Shown here one piece after another: positions 18,094 through 52,287 of a stretch of 64,000 nucleotides of DNA (positions within the stretch are counted from its first letter, which is position 1; every line of letters starts with the position of its first letter). This DNA is from Adlercreutzia sp. ZJ304 (GTDB lineage Bacteria; Actinomycetota; Coriobacteriia; Coriobacteriales; Eggerthellaceae). The position numbers were made by a program, and so were the translations under genes. The notes below the pieces were generated by a model, which searched no databases, was not told the DNA's origin, and worked only from the letters and a program-made list of their open reading frames with translations. Location: NCBI RefSeq assembly GCF_011039075.1, contig NZ_JAAKEG010000004.1:124001-188000 (forward strand), written 5' to 3'.

Positions 18094-19116
18094 TTATTCC
18101 GCGTTCGAAGAAGTTGCATTTATAACTGGGACATCGTAGCTCTCTCTTACTTTTGCCTCAATTTCATCTCGAAGCTCTGGGTTGTCACGTAAGGTTTGTT
18201 TTGCAGCTTCTCTTCCCTGTCCTAAACGTTCCTCGCCATATGTGTACCAAGCGCCACTCTTTTTGGCTACTCCACAATCAACTGCCATGTCAATAATGCA
18301 TCCTTCGCGAGAAATGCCTTCTCCATACATAAGATCAAATTCAGCCTGACGGAATGGAGGCGCTACTTTATTTTTGACAATCTTAGCTCGTACTCTATTG
18401 CCTACTGCTTCTCCGGATACTTTAATAGATTCTATTCGACGTATATCTATTCGTACACTTGAGAAGAACTTTAGAGCGCGACCTCCTGTGGTAGTTTCTG
18501 GATTACCAAACATAACGCCAATTTTTTCGCGCAACTGATTGATAAATATACATGTAGTATTCGACTTAGATAAAGAACCTGCCAGTTTTCTTAAAGCTTG
18601 CGACATTAGGCGTGCCTGCAAACCAACTGTAGTATCTCCCATTTCGCCTTCTATTTCAGCGCGAGGAACAAGGGCAGCTACAGAGTCAATCACTACGCAA
18701 TCAACTGCGCTAGAGCGAACTAACATATCGCAAATTTCAAGTGCTTGTTCACCTGTATCGGGTTGAGATATAAGAACTTCATCTATATCTACACCAAGGC
18801 GTGCTGCATATACAGGATCAAGTGCATGTTCTGCATCTATAAAAGCAACTATGCCACCAAGAGCTTGCGCTTCAGCTAGTATTTGTAAGGCTAGAGTTGT
18901 TTTGCCGCTAGATTCTGGACCGTAAATTTCAATTATTCTGCCTCGCGGTACACCGCCTATGCCTAAAGCGACATCGAGCGGAAGAGCCCCGGTAGGTATA
19001 ACACCTATAGAAAGATCGGCACCGCTTTCTCCTAATTTCATGATAGAGCCTCGACCAAATTTCTTTTCAATCTGATCGGTCGTACTCTTTAGCAGCTCTT
19101 CTTTCGACTGCGCCAT
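18094..19116 (-). CDS. recA: recombinase RecA
   Basis: A DNA strand-exchange ATPase and the co-protease for LexA cleavage. Walker A GPESSGKT is at residues 66-73, and the rest of the core ([31 protein letters not shown]) is fully conserved. It is 340 residues with no intein. An AGGAG site lies 7 bases before the ATG. The promoter has a perfect TATAAT with a LexA box filling its spacer, so it is SOS-induced. Confidence 0.98.
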
Positions 19117-19166: not shown

Positions 19167-19194
19167 ATTATACGAACGTATGTTTGCAAGTCAA
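19167..19194 (-). promoter_or_regulatory. recA promoter
   Basis: On the minus strand the -35 is TTGACT (19194-19189), the spacer is 16 bases and the -10 is TATAAT (19172-19167). This near-consensus promoter would be strong when LexA is removed. Confidence 0.85.
19173..19186. promoter_or_regulatory. LexA operator of recA
   Basis: CGAACGTATGTTTG matches every fixed position of the Gram-positive LexA consensus CGAACRNRYGTTYG. It lies exactly between the -35 and -10. A half-site CGAACATAT (19160-19168) lies on the other side of the -10. Confidence 0.88.
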
Positions 19195-19253
19195 GAGGTT
19201 AAACTATATTCTGCTATAGCTACTTTGTTTCACTTGACACGTTCAATAATAGA

Positions 19254-19268
19254 TATAAAACCTTGCAT
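19254..19268. repeat. direct repeat copy 1 (TATAAAACCTTGCAT)
   Basis: Identical 15-base copy of 19376-19390, 122 bases away. Read on the minus strand it is ATGCAAGGTTTTATA. Confidence 0.75.
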
Positions 19269-19375
19269 TTATATATCAAAAATGCGATTTTTGTTTACAG
19301 AGAAATACATACACATTTAAATAGAAACATGGCATCAATACATATTCATATTAGCTAAAATGCAATATTGAATCC

Positions 19376-19390
19376 TATAAAACCTTGCAT
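19376..19390. repeat. direct repeat copy 2 (TATAAAACCTTGCAT)
   Basis: Second identical copy, followed by a degenerate AAACCTTACA. It starts 16 bases past the end of the pgsA-cinA gene. Near-copies occur at 51005-51028 upstream of comEA. Confidence 0.75.
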
Positions 19391-19405
19391 AAACCTTACA
19401 AATTT

Positions 19406-20572
19406 CTAACGCGCATCCCCATTAATGGCTTCAAGCAAAATATCTAATGCCTTTTTTGCAGATAAACGCCTGATTTTGTCTCTATTGCCTTCAAAGTGCA
19501 TAACCTCAGCTTCTGTTGCGTAAGGCGTACTAACAGCAAACCATACTGTGCCTATGGGTTTGCCCGGTTCAGCCCCAGTAGGACCTGCAATACCTGTAGT
19601 TGATACAGCAAAATCTGACTTTAATATTCGCTGAGCCCCTTTAGCCATATCAATGGCAGTACGAGCATTTACGGCACCATCAGATTTGAGCGTATCTGAA
19701 TCTACCCCAAGTACATCAGATTTAACACTGAGGGCATAGCTAGCCACACCACCCATTACAACAGAAGAACTACCAGCAACAGATGTAAGTGCGCAGCTAA
19801 CCATTCCCCCTGTTAGGCTTTCGGCACTAGAAACGGTAACTCCTTTATTAGATGCCGCACAAACAACATCTGCTGCTAATGCATTCAAATATTCGTCGTC
19901 AATATCGCATTCGTCACTATTTTCGGCATCAAATTTAGCGGGCTTAAAACCTAATAAATGTCTAGCTTTTGAAATATAGTCAAGCATAGAAATGATCGTA
20001 AGAATTAGGGCGATAATCATTGTCACCCATGAAATAACGTACAGAGGGTTATTGATATTCTCTGTATTCGGAATTACCAAAGCGTCTTTTATCAAAAATA
20101 AAACAATGGCTATTATTTGGGCGACAGTTTTGGCTTTTCCATACCAACTAGCTGCTATTACCTCGTTTTTGCTAGCCGCTATCATGCGTACACCTGACAC
20201 AATAAATTCGCGTGCAAGAATTATGAGCACAGGCCAAGCCGGCAATACTGAAAGCTCTACAAGCGCAAGTAATGCTGCTGCTACAAGAATTTTGTCAGCA
20301 AGCGGGTCCATAAATTTTCCGAAATCGGTTACTTCATTGCGCTTTCTGGCTAAATAACCATCTATCCAGTCTGTAGCGGAAATAAGAATAAATACTGCTG
20401 CCGCTACAAGCGATTTTGTCTGATCGTCAACCAGATGTGCGATACCAAACCACTCTGGCCACGGACTTAGCAGCGCAACCACAAATACGGGGACCAAACA
20501 TATCCTAATGAGAGTAATAATGTTGGAAAGTGTCCATATATTAGAAGCTGCTTTTTTGCGATTATCAGACAT
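19406..20572 (-). CDS. PgsA-CinA fusion: phosphatidylglycerophosphate synthase plus CinA amidase domain
   Basis: A 388-residue two-domain protein. Residues about 15-210 form a membrane CDP-alcohol phosphatidyltransferase that makes phosphatidylglycerol phosphate, with motif residues D71, G72, A75, R76, G85, D89 and D93. Residues about 230-385 are a CinA C-terminal domain (SAESLTGG, TTGIAGPTGA), which in other proteins deamidates nicotinamide mononucleotide. The reading frame is continuous through a short acidic linker (ENSDECDIDD). In most actinobacteria these are two neighbouring genes, so this is a gene fusion. Its ATG overlaps the rimO stop by 8 bases. Confidence 0.9.
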   Translation of the reverse strand: MSDNRKKAASNIWTLSNIITLIRICLVPVFVVALLSPWPEWFGIAHLVDDQTKSLVAAAVFILISATDWIDGYLARKRNEVTDFGKFMDPLADKILVAAALLALVELSVLPAWPVLIILAREFIVSGVRMIAASKNEVIAASWYGKAKTVAQIIAIVLFLIKDALVIPNTENINNPLYVISWVTMIIALILTIISMLDYISKARHLLGFKPAKFDAENSDECDIDDEYLNALAADVVCAASNKGVTVSSAESLTGGMVSCALTSVAGSSSVVMGGVASYALSVKSDVLGVDSDTLKSDGAVNARTAIDMAKGAQRILKSDFAVSTTGIAGPTGAEPGKPIGTVWFAVSTPYATEAEVMHFEGNRDKIRRLSAKKALDILLEAINGDAR

Positions 20573-47823: not shown

Positions 47824-50163
47824 TTAAGAGCTAGATTTAATTTCTATGCCTTCCTCCTTGAAAGTTAAGGAAGTTTGTCCATTTATATCCGTGCGCATAA
47901 TGCATTTCGATGTATCTAGGCATTCCAATGCTTCATCGGATGGGTGCCCATATCTATTATTGGCACCACAACTTATTAACGCTATTTCCGGCTGCAATTT
48001 ATTTGATATAGCTTTAGTCAAAGAAATTTTTGAACCGTGGTGTCCAACTTTTAAAACATCAATATCGCCTACGCTGCCCGAATTAAGTAATTCATCTAAC
48101 TGTTCGGCTTCGGCGTCTCCTGTGAACAAAGTTTTGTAGTCGCATATACCATCGCTATTGCAATCTGCTTCGCATAACAGACAAATACTATCGGAGTTTC
48201 CTCCTTCGTCTTTGTACTCGTTGGGCCATATAACGCGAAGCGAAAAAATGCCAACTTTAAGAGTGTCGCCAACGCTAAGTCCTTGCAGTTCACTATCACT
48301 AGCGCGTTCAGCTGAATTACGTAATTCGGAGCAATTTTCACATTCGCAATTGAGCAAAAATTTAGATGAATATACTCTATCAATTTGCATATACGTAGAT
48401 AGCGATTCTAAAGAAGAACAATGATCGTCATCTGGATGGGTTATAACTACCGCATCAAGTTTATATACTCCTAAATTTGCCAAACCCTCTTTTAGCAAAC
48501 TGTCTTGATTTCCTGTATCTATAAGAATAGATGAACCTTTGCTACGCACAAGGAATGAATCGCCCTGCGCAACGTCAAGCATTACTATTTCGTCGGCTTT
48601 TGTTAATGGAGACAGAAATATAAAGATTGCTACAGCAGCATACGAACAAATAAAAAATGCCATAGCAACATTTAGGTGCAAGCTAGGCCAGAGAAACCAA
48701 AGAGTAAGACACATTGCAACACTCAGCAAAAGCATTACCCACGGCGAAACGCTAATGGCAATACATCCAAAAGGAATGTCTGCTAAAAATTCTACTGCCA
48801 CGCTTAATGGCATTACAGAAATTGCTGCCAGCTGAACTATAGCTACAGCCGCCGCTGGAAACATACATGAAATTACTGCGCCCAGTAAGGCACCAACGCA
48901 GGATATAGTAAACAGCGGAGTTGCTACAATGTTTGCCAAAGGCGCAACTAGTGGAAGTTGCGAAAATAAAGCCATGGAATACGGCAAAGTTGCTACATTT
49001 GAAGCTAGTGTCATTCCGATAGGAGCGCCTATCGTTTTGCGAATAGAGTTAGGACAAGAGGAAAACCAAGATGACACAAGCCCTGCAAATAGCAAAATTC
49101 CCAAAGTTGAACCAACTGATAATACAAACGAAGCAGATATTGAAACTGCAGGATCGGTGCAAATAAATACAATTATGCATAATGCTAGAGCGCTTATTGC
49201 GGAATCTCGGCGTTTAGCAAAGGGAGATAAGAGCGACAGTACAACCATAAAAGCCGCGCGTAGCGCAGATATTGGTACACCAGCAAGCACTAAGTAAGCT
49301 AAAACAAACGCTATAAGAATAATAGTTACAGCAATACGTGGCATTTTAAGAAAGCTAAGCAGCCAACGAAAAAGAATGGTGACAATGCCAAGATGTGCAC
49401 CTGATACAGCTACAAGATGTGCTAAGCCACACCTTTTGTAATATTCATAAATTCCACTGTCTTCAATGCCTTGTCTATAACCGCAAGCTAAAGCCTGCAA
49501 CAATCCCGCTTGGTCCCCACCAAATTCCTCAAACAGACTAATAGCTTGTTTTCTTATATTTTGTAAAGCCGAAATAATACCATCGCGCACAACAAGTTCG
49601 TATGTATCCGCTGTTATCGAACAACCTACTCCTTGACTCCAATAAAACTCAGAACTTGATTCTTTAATAGTTTTAGGAGAGGCACTTAGTATTAATTCGT
49701 CCCCACGAAACAGTTCTACATTTTCGCGGAATTGAACGAATATTTTAGCTGTCTGATTGTGCGGACCACGCGATAGTACGTATGCAGAAGACCCAAAAGC
49801 ACCATCTTTGGCATCTGAAATAAGCGATAGGTGCCACTGACCACTATCCCTTATTGCTGCGTCTGCTTTACTATGTATTGCGCCTGCACCGAAAAAGCCA
49901 AAAGCGCAACCTAGTGCTAGCGAAATACACATCAGTGCAAGTGGACGAATTTTTTTCGATATGCAAAGCAAAGACGCAACAAGAAATGCGACTGTAGCTA
50001 TAAGTGAATAGCGGATACAGCTATCAATACTCAATAGAAACGATGCGTTGTATGTAAGCGCACATGCTAGCCAAAGCAATAAAGCAAATGGGAGTAAAAT
50101 CGAAAGACCCGGTTTAGTGGGTCTTTCATCGGATATAAGTGTGTTGCTTGTATTTTTCATCAT
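47824..50163 (-). CDS. comEC: DNA uptake channel ComEC/Rec2
   Basis: The inner-membrane channel for single-stranded DNA entry in transformation. The chain has about 780 residues: two N-terminal helices, a DUF4131-type soluble domain, the multi-helix Competence domain (about 220-490, with LAHLVAVSGAHLGIV) and a C-terminal metallo-beta-lactamase domain (THPDDDHC, KVGHHGS). The start is in ATGATGA overlapping the comEA stop; either ATG at 50163 or 50160 is possible. The frame is intact. Confidence 0.93.
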   Translation of the reverse strand: MMKNTSNTLISDERPTKPGLSILLPFALLLWLACALTYNASFLLSIDSCIRYSLIATVAFLVASLLCISKKIRPLALMCISLALGCAFGFFGAGAIHSKADAAIRDSGQWHLSLISDAKDGAFGSSAYVLSRGPHNQTAKIFVQFRENVELFRGDELILSASPKTIKESSSEFYWSQGVGCSITADTYELVVRDGIISALQNIRKQAISLFEEFGGDQAGLLQALACGYRQGIEDSGIYEYYKRCGLAHLVAVSGAHLGIVTILFRWLLSFLKMPRIAVTIILIAFVLAYLVLAGVPISALRAAFMVVLSLLSPFAKRRDSAISALALCIIVFICTDPAVSISASFVLSVGSTLGILLFAGLVSSWFSSCPNSIRKTIGAPIGMTLASNVATLPYSMALFSQLPLVAPLANIVATPLFTISCVGALLGAVISCMFPAAAVAIVQLAAISVMPLSVAVEFLADIPFGCIAISVSPWVMLLLSVAMCLTLWFLWPSLHLNVAMAFFICSYAAVAIFIFLSPLTKADEIVMLDVAQGDSFLVRSKGSSILIDTGNQDSLLKEGLANLGVYKLDAVVITHPDDDHCSSLESLSTYMQIDRVYSSKFLLNCECENCSELRNSAERASDSELQGLSVGDTLKVGIFSLRVIWPNEYKDEGGNSDSICLLCEADCNSDGICDYKTLFTGDAEAEQLDELLNSGSVGDIDVLKVGHHGSKISLTKAISNKLQPEIALISCGANNRYGHPSDEALECLDTSKCIMRTDINGQTSLTFKEEGIEIKSSS

Positions 50164-50843
50164 ACACAAATTTGGTCGCGTATTGATTCGAGCGTTTTCT
50201 CGCCTATACCCGATACATTTGTTAAGTCTTCTACACTTTTGAATTTTCCGTTTGATTCGCGATAGGCGATTATCTTCTTTGCTTTAGACTCGCCAATTCC
50301 GCTTATTGTCTGTAGTTGCGCAGCATCAGCTGTATTGATGTTTACCCTTGAAGACTGCGCACCGCTCGGTGTCTGATTAGATGCAGACAAAGTGTCTTCA
50401 GGGGCTGCTGTAGCAGCGGAAATTTGCGCCATGTCTTCTTTACTGGGTACTGAGATTTGTTCTCCATCAGTGATAACTTGTGCAAGATTCAACGCATCTG
50501 TACAGGCATTATCAGAAAAACCACCAGCAGCACTTATAGCATCAGCTATTCGTGCACCATCAGTTAATTCATAAAGACCAGCGTTAAGAACACAACCTGT
50601 TACATGAACAAAGATGCTTGCTTCTTTAGCATCTTCTACTTGTACCCCCGCATCTTCTGTAGTCTCTGCTGCTTGAGCTTCAACAATTTGAAAGTTATTT
50701 GTATCGGCAACGCTCTTCAAACCGAAAAGCAGAGCACCTAATGCTACGACACATATTGCAGCAATTCCTATTACTATTTGCGGACGTATTTGTCCTAGGT
50801 GTAGTTTTGATTTTGCACTTTCCGAATAATCTTGGAAACCCAT
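50160..50843 (-). CDS. comEA: DNA uptake receptor ComEA
   Basis: A membrane-anchored DNA-binding protein for transformation. One N-terminal transmembrane helix (about 22-44), an SLBB domain (about 75-135, VTGCVLNAGLYEL and AISAAGGF) and a C-terminal helix-hairpin-helix pair (VNINTADAAQLQTISGIGESKAKKI). The ATG at 50843 has GGAGG 5 bases upstream and is preferred to the TTG at 50855. It forms a comEA-comEC-holA operon. Confidence 0.94.
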   Translation of the reverse strand: MGFQDYSESAKSKLHLGQIRPQIVIGIAAICVVALGALLFGLKSVADTNNFQIVEAQAAETTEDAGVQVEDAKEASIFVHVTGCVLNAGLYELTDGARIADAISAAGGFSDNACTDALNLAQVITDGEQISVPSKEDMAQISAATAAPEDTLSASNQTPSGAQSSRVNINTADAAQLQTISGIGESKAKKIIAYRESNGKFKSVEDLTNVSGIGEKTLESIRDQICV

Positions 50844-51087
50844 TTTCGCCTCCAAAACTTAGGTTTCCTCGGAAGTGTAGATATTAGATCTAACGTAGGC
50901 GTTATAGAAATGCAAGATTAATTACTATAAATTTATGCGCACATGGCAGTATGCATTCAATATCAAAACTATCTTTTACTAAATAAAATGCGAATTTATT
51001 TCAATATAAATCTTGCAGAAACCTTGCAAATATCGTGCATAATTCTGGCACTTATCTAACACTATATAAATACGTGCAGTAAGGGAG
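50844..51087. other. AT-rich gene-free stretch upstream of comEA
   Basis: No coding frame is visible. The part at about 50941-51030 resembles the region upstream of recA: TGCCATGT, GCATTTTA and tandem GCAAGGTTT-like words appear in the same order on the minus strand. No confident promoter could be placed. Confidence 0.5.
51005..51028. repeat. degenerate CTTGCA tandem upstream of comEA
   Basis: TATAAATCTTGCA followed directly by GAAACCTTGCA; both resemble the exact repeat TATAAAACCTTGCAT found twice upstream of recA. Confidence 0.55.
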
Positions 51088-52287
51088 CTAATTCTTGCGT
51101 TTTAGTAATGGTGAATTGTATTCATGCACACATGCATTGCTTGCAAGTTCTTCTACCCAATTCTCTAGTGGATATTCGCTTTCCGCTTGCAAAACAGCAT
51201 CTATCTTTGCGTGCGTTTCAGGAGAGCGCGGCATAAACAAGGTACAACAATCGGGAGCATCCTGAGAAGAAATCTCAAATGTGCCAAGCTGCTGTGCCTG
51301 AGCAATTATTTCCTGCTTATCTGTACCAATAAGTGGTCGCAGAATTGGTAGATTAACAGATTGATCTGTTGCGGCTATATTATCTAGTGTCTGTGATGCA
51401 ACTTGTCCCAAACTCTCGCCTGTAACAAGAGCACGTGCACCTTCTATGTGCGCTATGCGTTCTGCCGTCTTAAACATAAGACGCCTATACAGAATTACAC
51501 GTAGCGGTGGCGGAGCTAATACCGATATTTCGCGCTGATAATCGCCCATAGCGCAAGTGTATATACGAGATATACATCCTGTTTTCTCTAGAACATGCGC
51601 GATGTCGTCTACGAGATACTCTGATGTGTCGCTCGTAACAGGCGCACCCGAAAAATGAACGCCTATGCAATTGGCTCCGCGACGCGCTAGGCGCCACAAA
51701 GCAACAGGTGAATCGATGCCAGATGAGAGCAGGCACACAACGCGCCCCGAACTTCCCACCGGTAAGCCGCCTATGCCAACGATACTTTTTGCATACACAA
51801 ACGCGCTATTTTGTATAACCTCTACATCAACTTGCACATCGGGGGATTTCATCTTTACATGCTTGGTAGGATAAGCCTCACACAAAACCGCACCAATATC
51901 GCGGTTAATTTGCATTGAATCTATCTCGAAATCGGTATGATTGCGTCGCGCTTGTACCTTAAAGGTTTCAAATGTTTGTACCTCAGCTAAAGCATTTATA
52001 GCAGCTTGCCCAATATCATCCATATTTCGCGGGCATTTAAAACCGCAAGACGCACGCGCCACCCCGGGTATCTGCGCAATTATTTCTTCGCACGCACAGG
52101 CAATATGAAGACTTGTGCCTTCTTTAAGAAAAACGACAAGCCGTCCAGAAATTCTATGAATATCAACTACGGGAAAACCTTCAAGAAGAAACTTCAAGTT
52201 TTTAAGAAGCCTCTGCTCGAAAGACCCTCTATTCTTGCCCTTAAGCCCGATTTCGTGGTAATGAACCAGTATTACTCGCTGATACAT
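51088..52287 (-). CDS. thiI: tRNA 4-thiouridylation protein ThiI
   Basis: Adenylates U8 of tRNA for sulfur insertion and can serve thiamine thiazole synthesis. It has an N-terminal ferredoxin-like/THUMP region, then a PP-loop LLSSGIDSPVA near residue 190, and no C-terminal rhodanese domain, as in most Gram-positive ThiI. The ATG at 52287 (MYQRVILVHYHEIGLKGKN) fits the family start better than the TTG at 52311. No good ribosome site is seen. It is the last gene behind rpoZ and gmk. Confidence 0.92.
   Translation of the reverse strand: MYQRVILVHYHEIGLKGKNRGSFEQRLLKNLKFLLEGFPVVDIHRISGRLVVFLKEGTSLHIACACEEIIAQIPGVARASCGFKCPRNMDDIGQAAINALAEVQTFETFKVQARRNHTDFEIDSMQINRDIGAVLCEAYPTKHVKMKSPDVQVDVEVIQNSAFVYAKSIVGIGGLPVGSSGRVVCLLSSGIDSPVALWRLARRGANCIGVHFSGAPVTSDTSEYLVDDIAHVLEKTGCISRIYTCAMGDYQREISVLAPPPLRVILYRRLMFKTAERIAHIEGARALVTGESLGQVASQTLDNIAATDQSVNLPILRPLIGTDKQEIIAQAQQLGTFEISSQDAPDCCTLFMPRSPETHAKIDAVLQAESEYPLENWVEELASNACVHEYNSPLLKRKN

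Follow-up and report, generated by a model that had tools for sequence, protein, structure and literature searches.

Competence regulons known from other bacteria are governed by ComK, ComX/SigX or CRP-S/Sxy. In a different setting, operators of SARP regulators consist of direct repeats spaced 11 or 22 bp apart, with the 3' repeat lying 8 bp from the -10 element (PMC10936776), and that of PimR is built from the heptamer CGGCAAG with 4-bp spacers (PMC5930380). For actinobacteria, a study of the model species Micrococcus luteus stated that little is known about the development of competence in the phylum (PMC8467076). Our literature search, which had partial full-text coverage, returned nothing on DNA-uptake control in Coriobacteriia, on competence under the control of a SARP or on arrays such as those described below.

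Here we describe the regions upstream of recA and comEA in the window (the whole 64-kb stretch of DNA that was analysed). The two regions are likely, with a probability of about 0.8, to be promoters of one competence regulon, activated by a SARP-domain protein encoded next to secA through phased arrays of 11-bp units; binding and activation are what we infer from the arrays and the protein.

The recA and comEA upstream regions

The first-pass annotation had reported a series of words shared by the two gaps, and had suggested a shared competence regulator site, a duplicated non-coding element or, alternatively, 3'-end elements of pgsA-cinA and thiI; it described neither an 11-bp array, nor a fixed promoter, nor a regulator. 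All of the words it named were found on the minus strand in both gaps, in the order given. The first three are equally spaced in the two gaps, with 25 bp from the second GCAAGRT to GCATTTTA, but the spacing of TGCCATGT is unequal, at 54 versus 68 bp from the second GCAAGRT heptamer. With up to three mismatches allowed, AAGGTTTNTGCAAGRTTTNTA occurs in just two places in the 64 kb, the recA gap and the comEA gap, against an average of 0.04 in shuffled sequences. The 15-mer TATAAAACCTTGCAT is an exact repeat (19254-19268 and 19376-19390), as had been noted; its two copies are units of one recA array, the distal one and the one nearest the promoter, 122 bp apart. The gaps do precede recA and comEA, but they are larger than had been drawn (19249-19395 and 50941-51035): the first spans from the cinA stop at 19406 to the recA start at 19116, the second from the thiI stop at 51088 to the comEA start at 50843. 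The element itself also extends further downstream than first drawn, as far as -10 sequences at 19246-19251 (recA) and 50874-50879 (comEA). The features are as follows, in window coordinates.

18094-19116, minus strand: recA (PF00154)
19173-19186, minus strand (19186-19173): LexA-like box CAAACATACGTTCG, overlapping the second recA promoter
19167-19194, minus strand: second recA promoter, TTGACT-N16-TATAAT, as read from the sequence
19246-19399, minus strand: competence-type recA promoter, with in-phase degenerate 11-bp units, then 8 bp, then the -10
19399-19393 and 19388-19382, minus strand: distal units of the recA array, GTAAGGT and GCAAGGT
19266-19260, minus strand: proximal recA unit GCAAGGT, followed by 8 bp and the -10 TATTAT (19251-19246)
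47824-50169, minus strand: comEC (PF03772 match G000:C27:172691-173491, window 48691-49491)
50160-50843, minus strand: comEA (SLBB and helix-hairpin-helix domains)
50874-51027, minus strand: comEA promoter, with GCAAGGT (51027-51021) and GCAAGAT (51016-51010), and degenerate in-phase units between these and the proximal unit
50894-50888, minus strand: proximal comEA unit GTTAGAT, followed by 8 bp and the -10 TACACT (50879-50874)

Each gap is thus laid out as a promoter preceded by about a dozen in-phase degenerate 11-bp units with the core GCAAGRT. In an unbiased scan of the window for 11-bp periodicity, the comEA gap ranked first (z 5.1); the recA gap, where the phase slips by one base, lay outside the top 12. 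The LexA-type promoter, named from a box that resembles the LexA consensus, is closer to recA than the competence-type promoter. recA appears to be under both controls, with SOS and competence apparently acting separately.

Arranged in lines of 11 bases, the promoters of this kind in the source genome show in-phase degenerate units across approximately 130 bp. Their mean autocorrelation is 0.33 to 0.35 at lags of 11, 22, 33, and 44, and approximately 0.27 elsewhere; the 11-bp periodicity has a z of 8.9 against shuffles. The final unit takes the form G(C/T)NAG(A/G)T, followed by 8 bp and then TAnnnT, as in these five promoters:

recA: GCAAGGT-tttatatc-TATTAT
comEA: GTTAGAT-ctaatatc-TACACT
comF: GCAAGAT-ttcatatc-TAGAAT
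ssb: GTAAGAT-ttgctatc-TATAGT
yraN: GCTAGAT-atgaaaac-TATCGT

In 16 of 28 promoters from this genome and its relatives, heptamer and TAnnnT are separated by exactly 8 bp, and no other single distance is found in more than 4. Both patterns were picked after viewing the promoters, so that the p-value of this test gives no more than an indication; what stands independently of that choice is that the distance obtained equals the published SARP distance. The same offset is found in GC-rich relatives. By spacing, then, the arrays have both features of a SARP operator, with repeats 11 (or 22) bp apart and a 3' repeat 8 bp from the -10.

Genes behind the arrays, in the source genome and in relatives

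We searched the source genome (2.0 Mb in 33 contigs) and read the stretches around the matches in context. The motif gave 21 matches, against 1 for a reversed control; the proximal box TGATAC-N9-AGATTT-NN-TATCTA gave 17 against 3, nearly all of them at motif sites. Matches were not scattered but concentrated before competence genes: arrays lie upstream of recA, comEA-comEC, comF, the yraN-comM-dprA operon, the rpsF-ssb operon and a Tad pilus operon with cpaB as its first gene. One element therefore precedes genes for DNA uptake, the pilus, dprA, ssb and recA together, the composition expected of a competence regulon, and the suggestion of a shared competence regulator site gains support from these matches and from their recurrence in relatives. 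The few remaining weak matches, inside coding genes, are probably due to chance.

Further arrays precede several Rpn/PDDEXK_2 genes (PF12784), a DUF559 endonuclease gene and the gene for a surface protein of 1384 aa with thioester (TED_2), SpaA and TQ domains, which is followed by a sortase gene. At least six Rpn/PDDEXK_2 genes carry the competence promoter (L011, L013, L018, L020, L041-L043, L002, L003); several copies lie at contig ends, and contigs C6 and C32 have an identical stretch in common, through either assembly redundancy or duplication. The DUF559 gene (L026:7429-7866) lies between rsmG and parA-parB, behind one of the longest well-matched runs of units in the genome. The surface protein gene (L025:7762-11916), with its sortase gene, lies behind an array divergent from rseP; an array is found at the same rseP-divergent place in G036, and a SpaA-domain protein behind an array in G009 (L247, L232). 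Divergent from the rpsF-ssb operon is a Cas9-like ORF (L027:9648-13000).

An exact motif search in related genomes gave almost no matches, because the unit sequence drifts between genera, and conservation emerged only in a periodicity test. Upstream of comEA the unit is GCTGGATCCGC in G005 and G036 and GTCAGATCCCG in G002; upstream of comF in G013 it is TTCAATCCGTA. Our period statistic, T11, averages the excess of matches over the lags k, 2k and 3k, with k = 11, and is compared with shuffles. Across Eggerthellaceae its z was 16.4 upstream of comEA (21 other genomes), 16.7 upstream of comF (20) and 12.6 upstream of recA (25), and no other period from 5 to 15 was raised upstream of these three genes in the family. 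T11 was near zero in all controls (≤0.008, versus 0.04 to 0.06), whether these were taken within thiI, within comEA or ahead of the SARP gene. A query of two tandem units gave 18, 10 and 4 matches in three GC-rich relatives, with 0 in the control for each; these matches precede comEA, comF, yraN-comM-dprA, rpsF-ssb, recA, and cpaB. The arrangement thus recurs in related genomes, kept as an 11-bp array pattern rather than as a sequence. Outside the family the signal is weaker (comF z 4.2, n = 7; comEA z 2.6, n = 8), and the periods seen for comEA in Firmicutes and others are mainly codon-related. No array was detectable in G010 and G031, which contain the SARP gene and comEA/comF.

Three toxin-antitoxin pairs of the Gp49/HigB type lie behind competence arrays in G005 (L231, L234, L242), much as toxTA in Haemophilus influenzae is competence-regulated (PMC6957337). 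The best-matching array of the same genome (L228, G005:C1:1735281-1735368) points at no evident gene, and an inverted repeat comes after it; the site is possibly an insertion or an unannotated RNA.

A SARP-domain protein encoded next to secA

Since the array period and the 8-bp offset match published SARP operators, we searched for BTAD (PF03704), the hallmark domain of SARPs. It was found in 36 of 41 relatives, nearly always as one copy. The only family member in this sample to lack it, G004, is also the only genome without both comEA and comF. Among 138 family genomes, BTAD was present in 127, mostly once, and ComEC in 122; both are missing from all three members of genus g3, to which G004 belongs. 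The association of BTAD with ComEC is weak in 92 high-quality genomes, at a Fisher p of 0.10, versus 3e-4 in all 138, incomplete ones included, and the co-loss rests on one genus and is hence a single event. G085 and G108 have ComEC and no BTAD match, and G040 has a comF array and no BTAD match; these three, like G010 and G031, may be assembly gaps, cases of undetectable divergence or real exceptions. The recA gaps of two SARP-less genomes, G004 and G112 (L307, L308), show a high 22-bp lag without one at 11 or 33 (n = 2), which could be a decayed array or chance.

In the genomes that were read closely, the SARP gene lies directly upstream of secA. The protein of the source genome (G000:C3, L288:4326-6959) has 877 aa and consists of an N-terminal NTPase-like part with a Walker A motif, helical repeats and a C-terminal SARP domain, in which an OmpR-like DNA-binding domain is followed by BTAD (residues ~624-873). 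PF03704 matched with E=1e-11, and profile searches matched EmbR and AfsR. A model of the SARP domain (pLDDT 90.7) gave as its best structural match AfsR in a transcription initiation complex with RNA polymerase (Z 19.4 over 240 residues), with EmbR at Z 18.3. In the full-length model, the N-terminal NTPase and helical part gave weak matches only (the STAND protein Avs3, DnaA, and a clamp loader). The AfsR DNA-contact residues compared were W74, T88, S91, R92, R94 and K95; by alignment, W74, S91 and R94 are kept (R94 as K in the source genome's own copy), T88 is replaced by S and R92 mostly by Q, M or L. The AfsR equivalog model of NCBIfam scored 15.7 bits against a cut-off of 1430. We call the protein a SARP-domain regulator, and not AfsR, because its SARP domain is C-terminal and this score falls far below the cut-off.

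No clear array precedes the SARP gene itself (T11 0.008, close to background). Array strength correlates with the identity of the DNA-binding domain to that of the source genome's SARP (Spearman 0.54, p 0.017), in a comparison uncorrected for shared ancestry and base composition.

Alternative readings, proposed mechanism and known systems

The most serious competing binder is a two-component response regulator of the OmpR/PhoB type. PhoB, PhoP and similar members of that family bind tandem 11-bp direct repeats, and the source genome has 8 PF00486 matches, so such a protein could occupy the arrays. The 8-bp offset to the -10, however, is the published SARP rule. OmpR-type counts range from 1 to 20 among the relatives, in contrast to the BTAD protein, of which there is nearly always just one, and the non-competent G004 keeps 4 OmpR-type domains and is without BTAD. 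We consider an OmpR/PhoB-type binder unlikely. Phased A/T tracts could instead bend the DNA without a specific binder, since the AAGGTTTT-type units recur every 11 bp in an AT-rich genome; but the units of GC-rich relatives, GCTGGATCCGC, contain no A tracts and have an equal period and the same 8-bp offset, which leaves this a slim chance. A BldC-like regulator was rejected on the 9-bp length of the BldC repeat.

The element could also stem from a repeat or mobile element, such as the multi-copy Rpn/PDDEXK_2 genes, one end of which became inserted ahead of recA and comEA. Several Rpn-type genes do have a match in front of them within upstream DNA that is nearly identical, in some cases at the end of a contig. 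Beyond the Rpn copies, however, likeness is limited to the motif positions and the distance to the promoter is fixed, and GC-rich relatives keep the period and the gene set with a different unit sequence; an origin of this kind is very improbable. A repeat or mobile-element reading of the shared 3' parts was dropped once the downstream genes were identified. Nor is a duplicated non-coding element needed, the units being degenerate, promoter-linked and kept as pattern rather than sequence. Both elements do lie just past the stops of cinA and thiI, where terminators or RNA elements of those genes might be sought. Many other, unrelated genes also have an array behind them, as do divergent ones, rseP for instance, and the arrays point at the downstream gene and are followed by a promoter. 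On these grounds we reject 3'-end elements of pgsA-cinA and thiI, and give that reading almost no weight.

We return to the secA-adjacent SARP-domain protein, which is conserved and is the most likely binder of the arrays. Units of 11 bp, one per helical turn, would align many protomers along the same face of the helix. A signal may be sensed by the N-terminal part, made up of the NTPase-like region and the helical repeats, with the NTPase-like region as the likely sensor; the protein would then bind the array cooperatively, one protomer per unit. At the proximal unit, whose heptamer is the last of the array and 8 bp away from a sigma-70-type -10, it would contact sigma and RNA polymerase in the manner of AfsR. 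In this way it would switch on uptake (comEA-comEC, comF, and the Tad pilus) and processing and recombination (dprA, ssb, and recA), as well as accessory nucleases and surface proteins. A long array would make the response steep and switch-like. For Eggerthellaceae, and perhaps much of Coriobacteriia, the competence master regulator is probably such a SARP with an NTPase sensor, acting as a row of protomers on about 12 to 15 phased sites, with a regulon reaching to nucleases, toxin-antitoxin pairs and adhesins.

A candidate regulator, its operator code and its regulon are thereby named together for a gut family that includes Adlercreutzia and Ellagibacter, and SARPs, familiar from antibiotic control, gain a probable role in gene transfer. 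The prediction is that natural transformation is possible in these gut bacteria. Rpn-type nucleases, the DUF559 nuclease, the thioester adhesin and toxin-antitoxin pairs of the HigB/Gp49 type are candidate new competence genes.

Among known systems, the regulons of ComK, ComX/SigX and CRP-S/Sxy are similar in that one regulator class serves uptake, pilus, dprA, ssb and recA, but they use other regulator families and boxes, with no phased 11-bp array. BldC also forms head-to-tail multimers of variable number on direct repeats, but its repeats are 9 bp and its fold is MerR-like and unrelated. EmbR of Mycobacterium tuberculosis, the closest protein by sequence, shares the DNA-binding domain and BTAD, but has a C-terminal FHA domain and no NTPase-like part. 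AfsR and the large SARPs share the OmpR-like DNA-binding domain and BTAD with the same fold (Z 19.4), together with NTPase-like and helical-repeat parts; relative to AfsR, however, where the SARP domain is N-terminal with NOD and TPR behind it, the domain order is reversed, at approximately 18% identity. The operators of AfsR (the afs box) and PimR are alike in their 11-bp direct repeats, heptamer plus 4-bp spacer and 8 bp to the -10, and the PimR heptamer CGGCAAG has GCAAG in common with the units found here. Those operators have 2 to 3 repeats (PMC10936776, PMC5930380), against some 12 to 15 units over approximately 130 to 165 bp here, and their targets are antibiotic or pimaricin regulators rather than DNA-uptake genes. 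The SARP domain, the SARP-type operator and the competence genes are each already known in kind; as far as can be told, what is new is the way they are combined, the reversed order of the domains and how long the arrays are.
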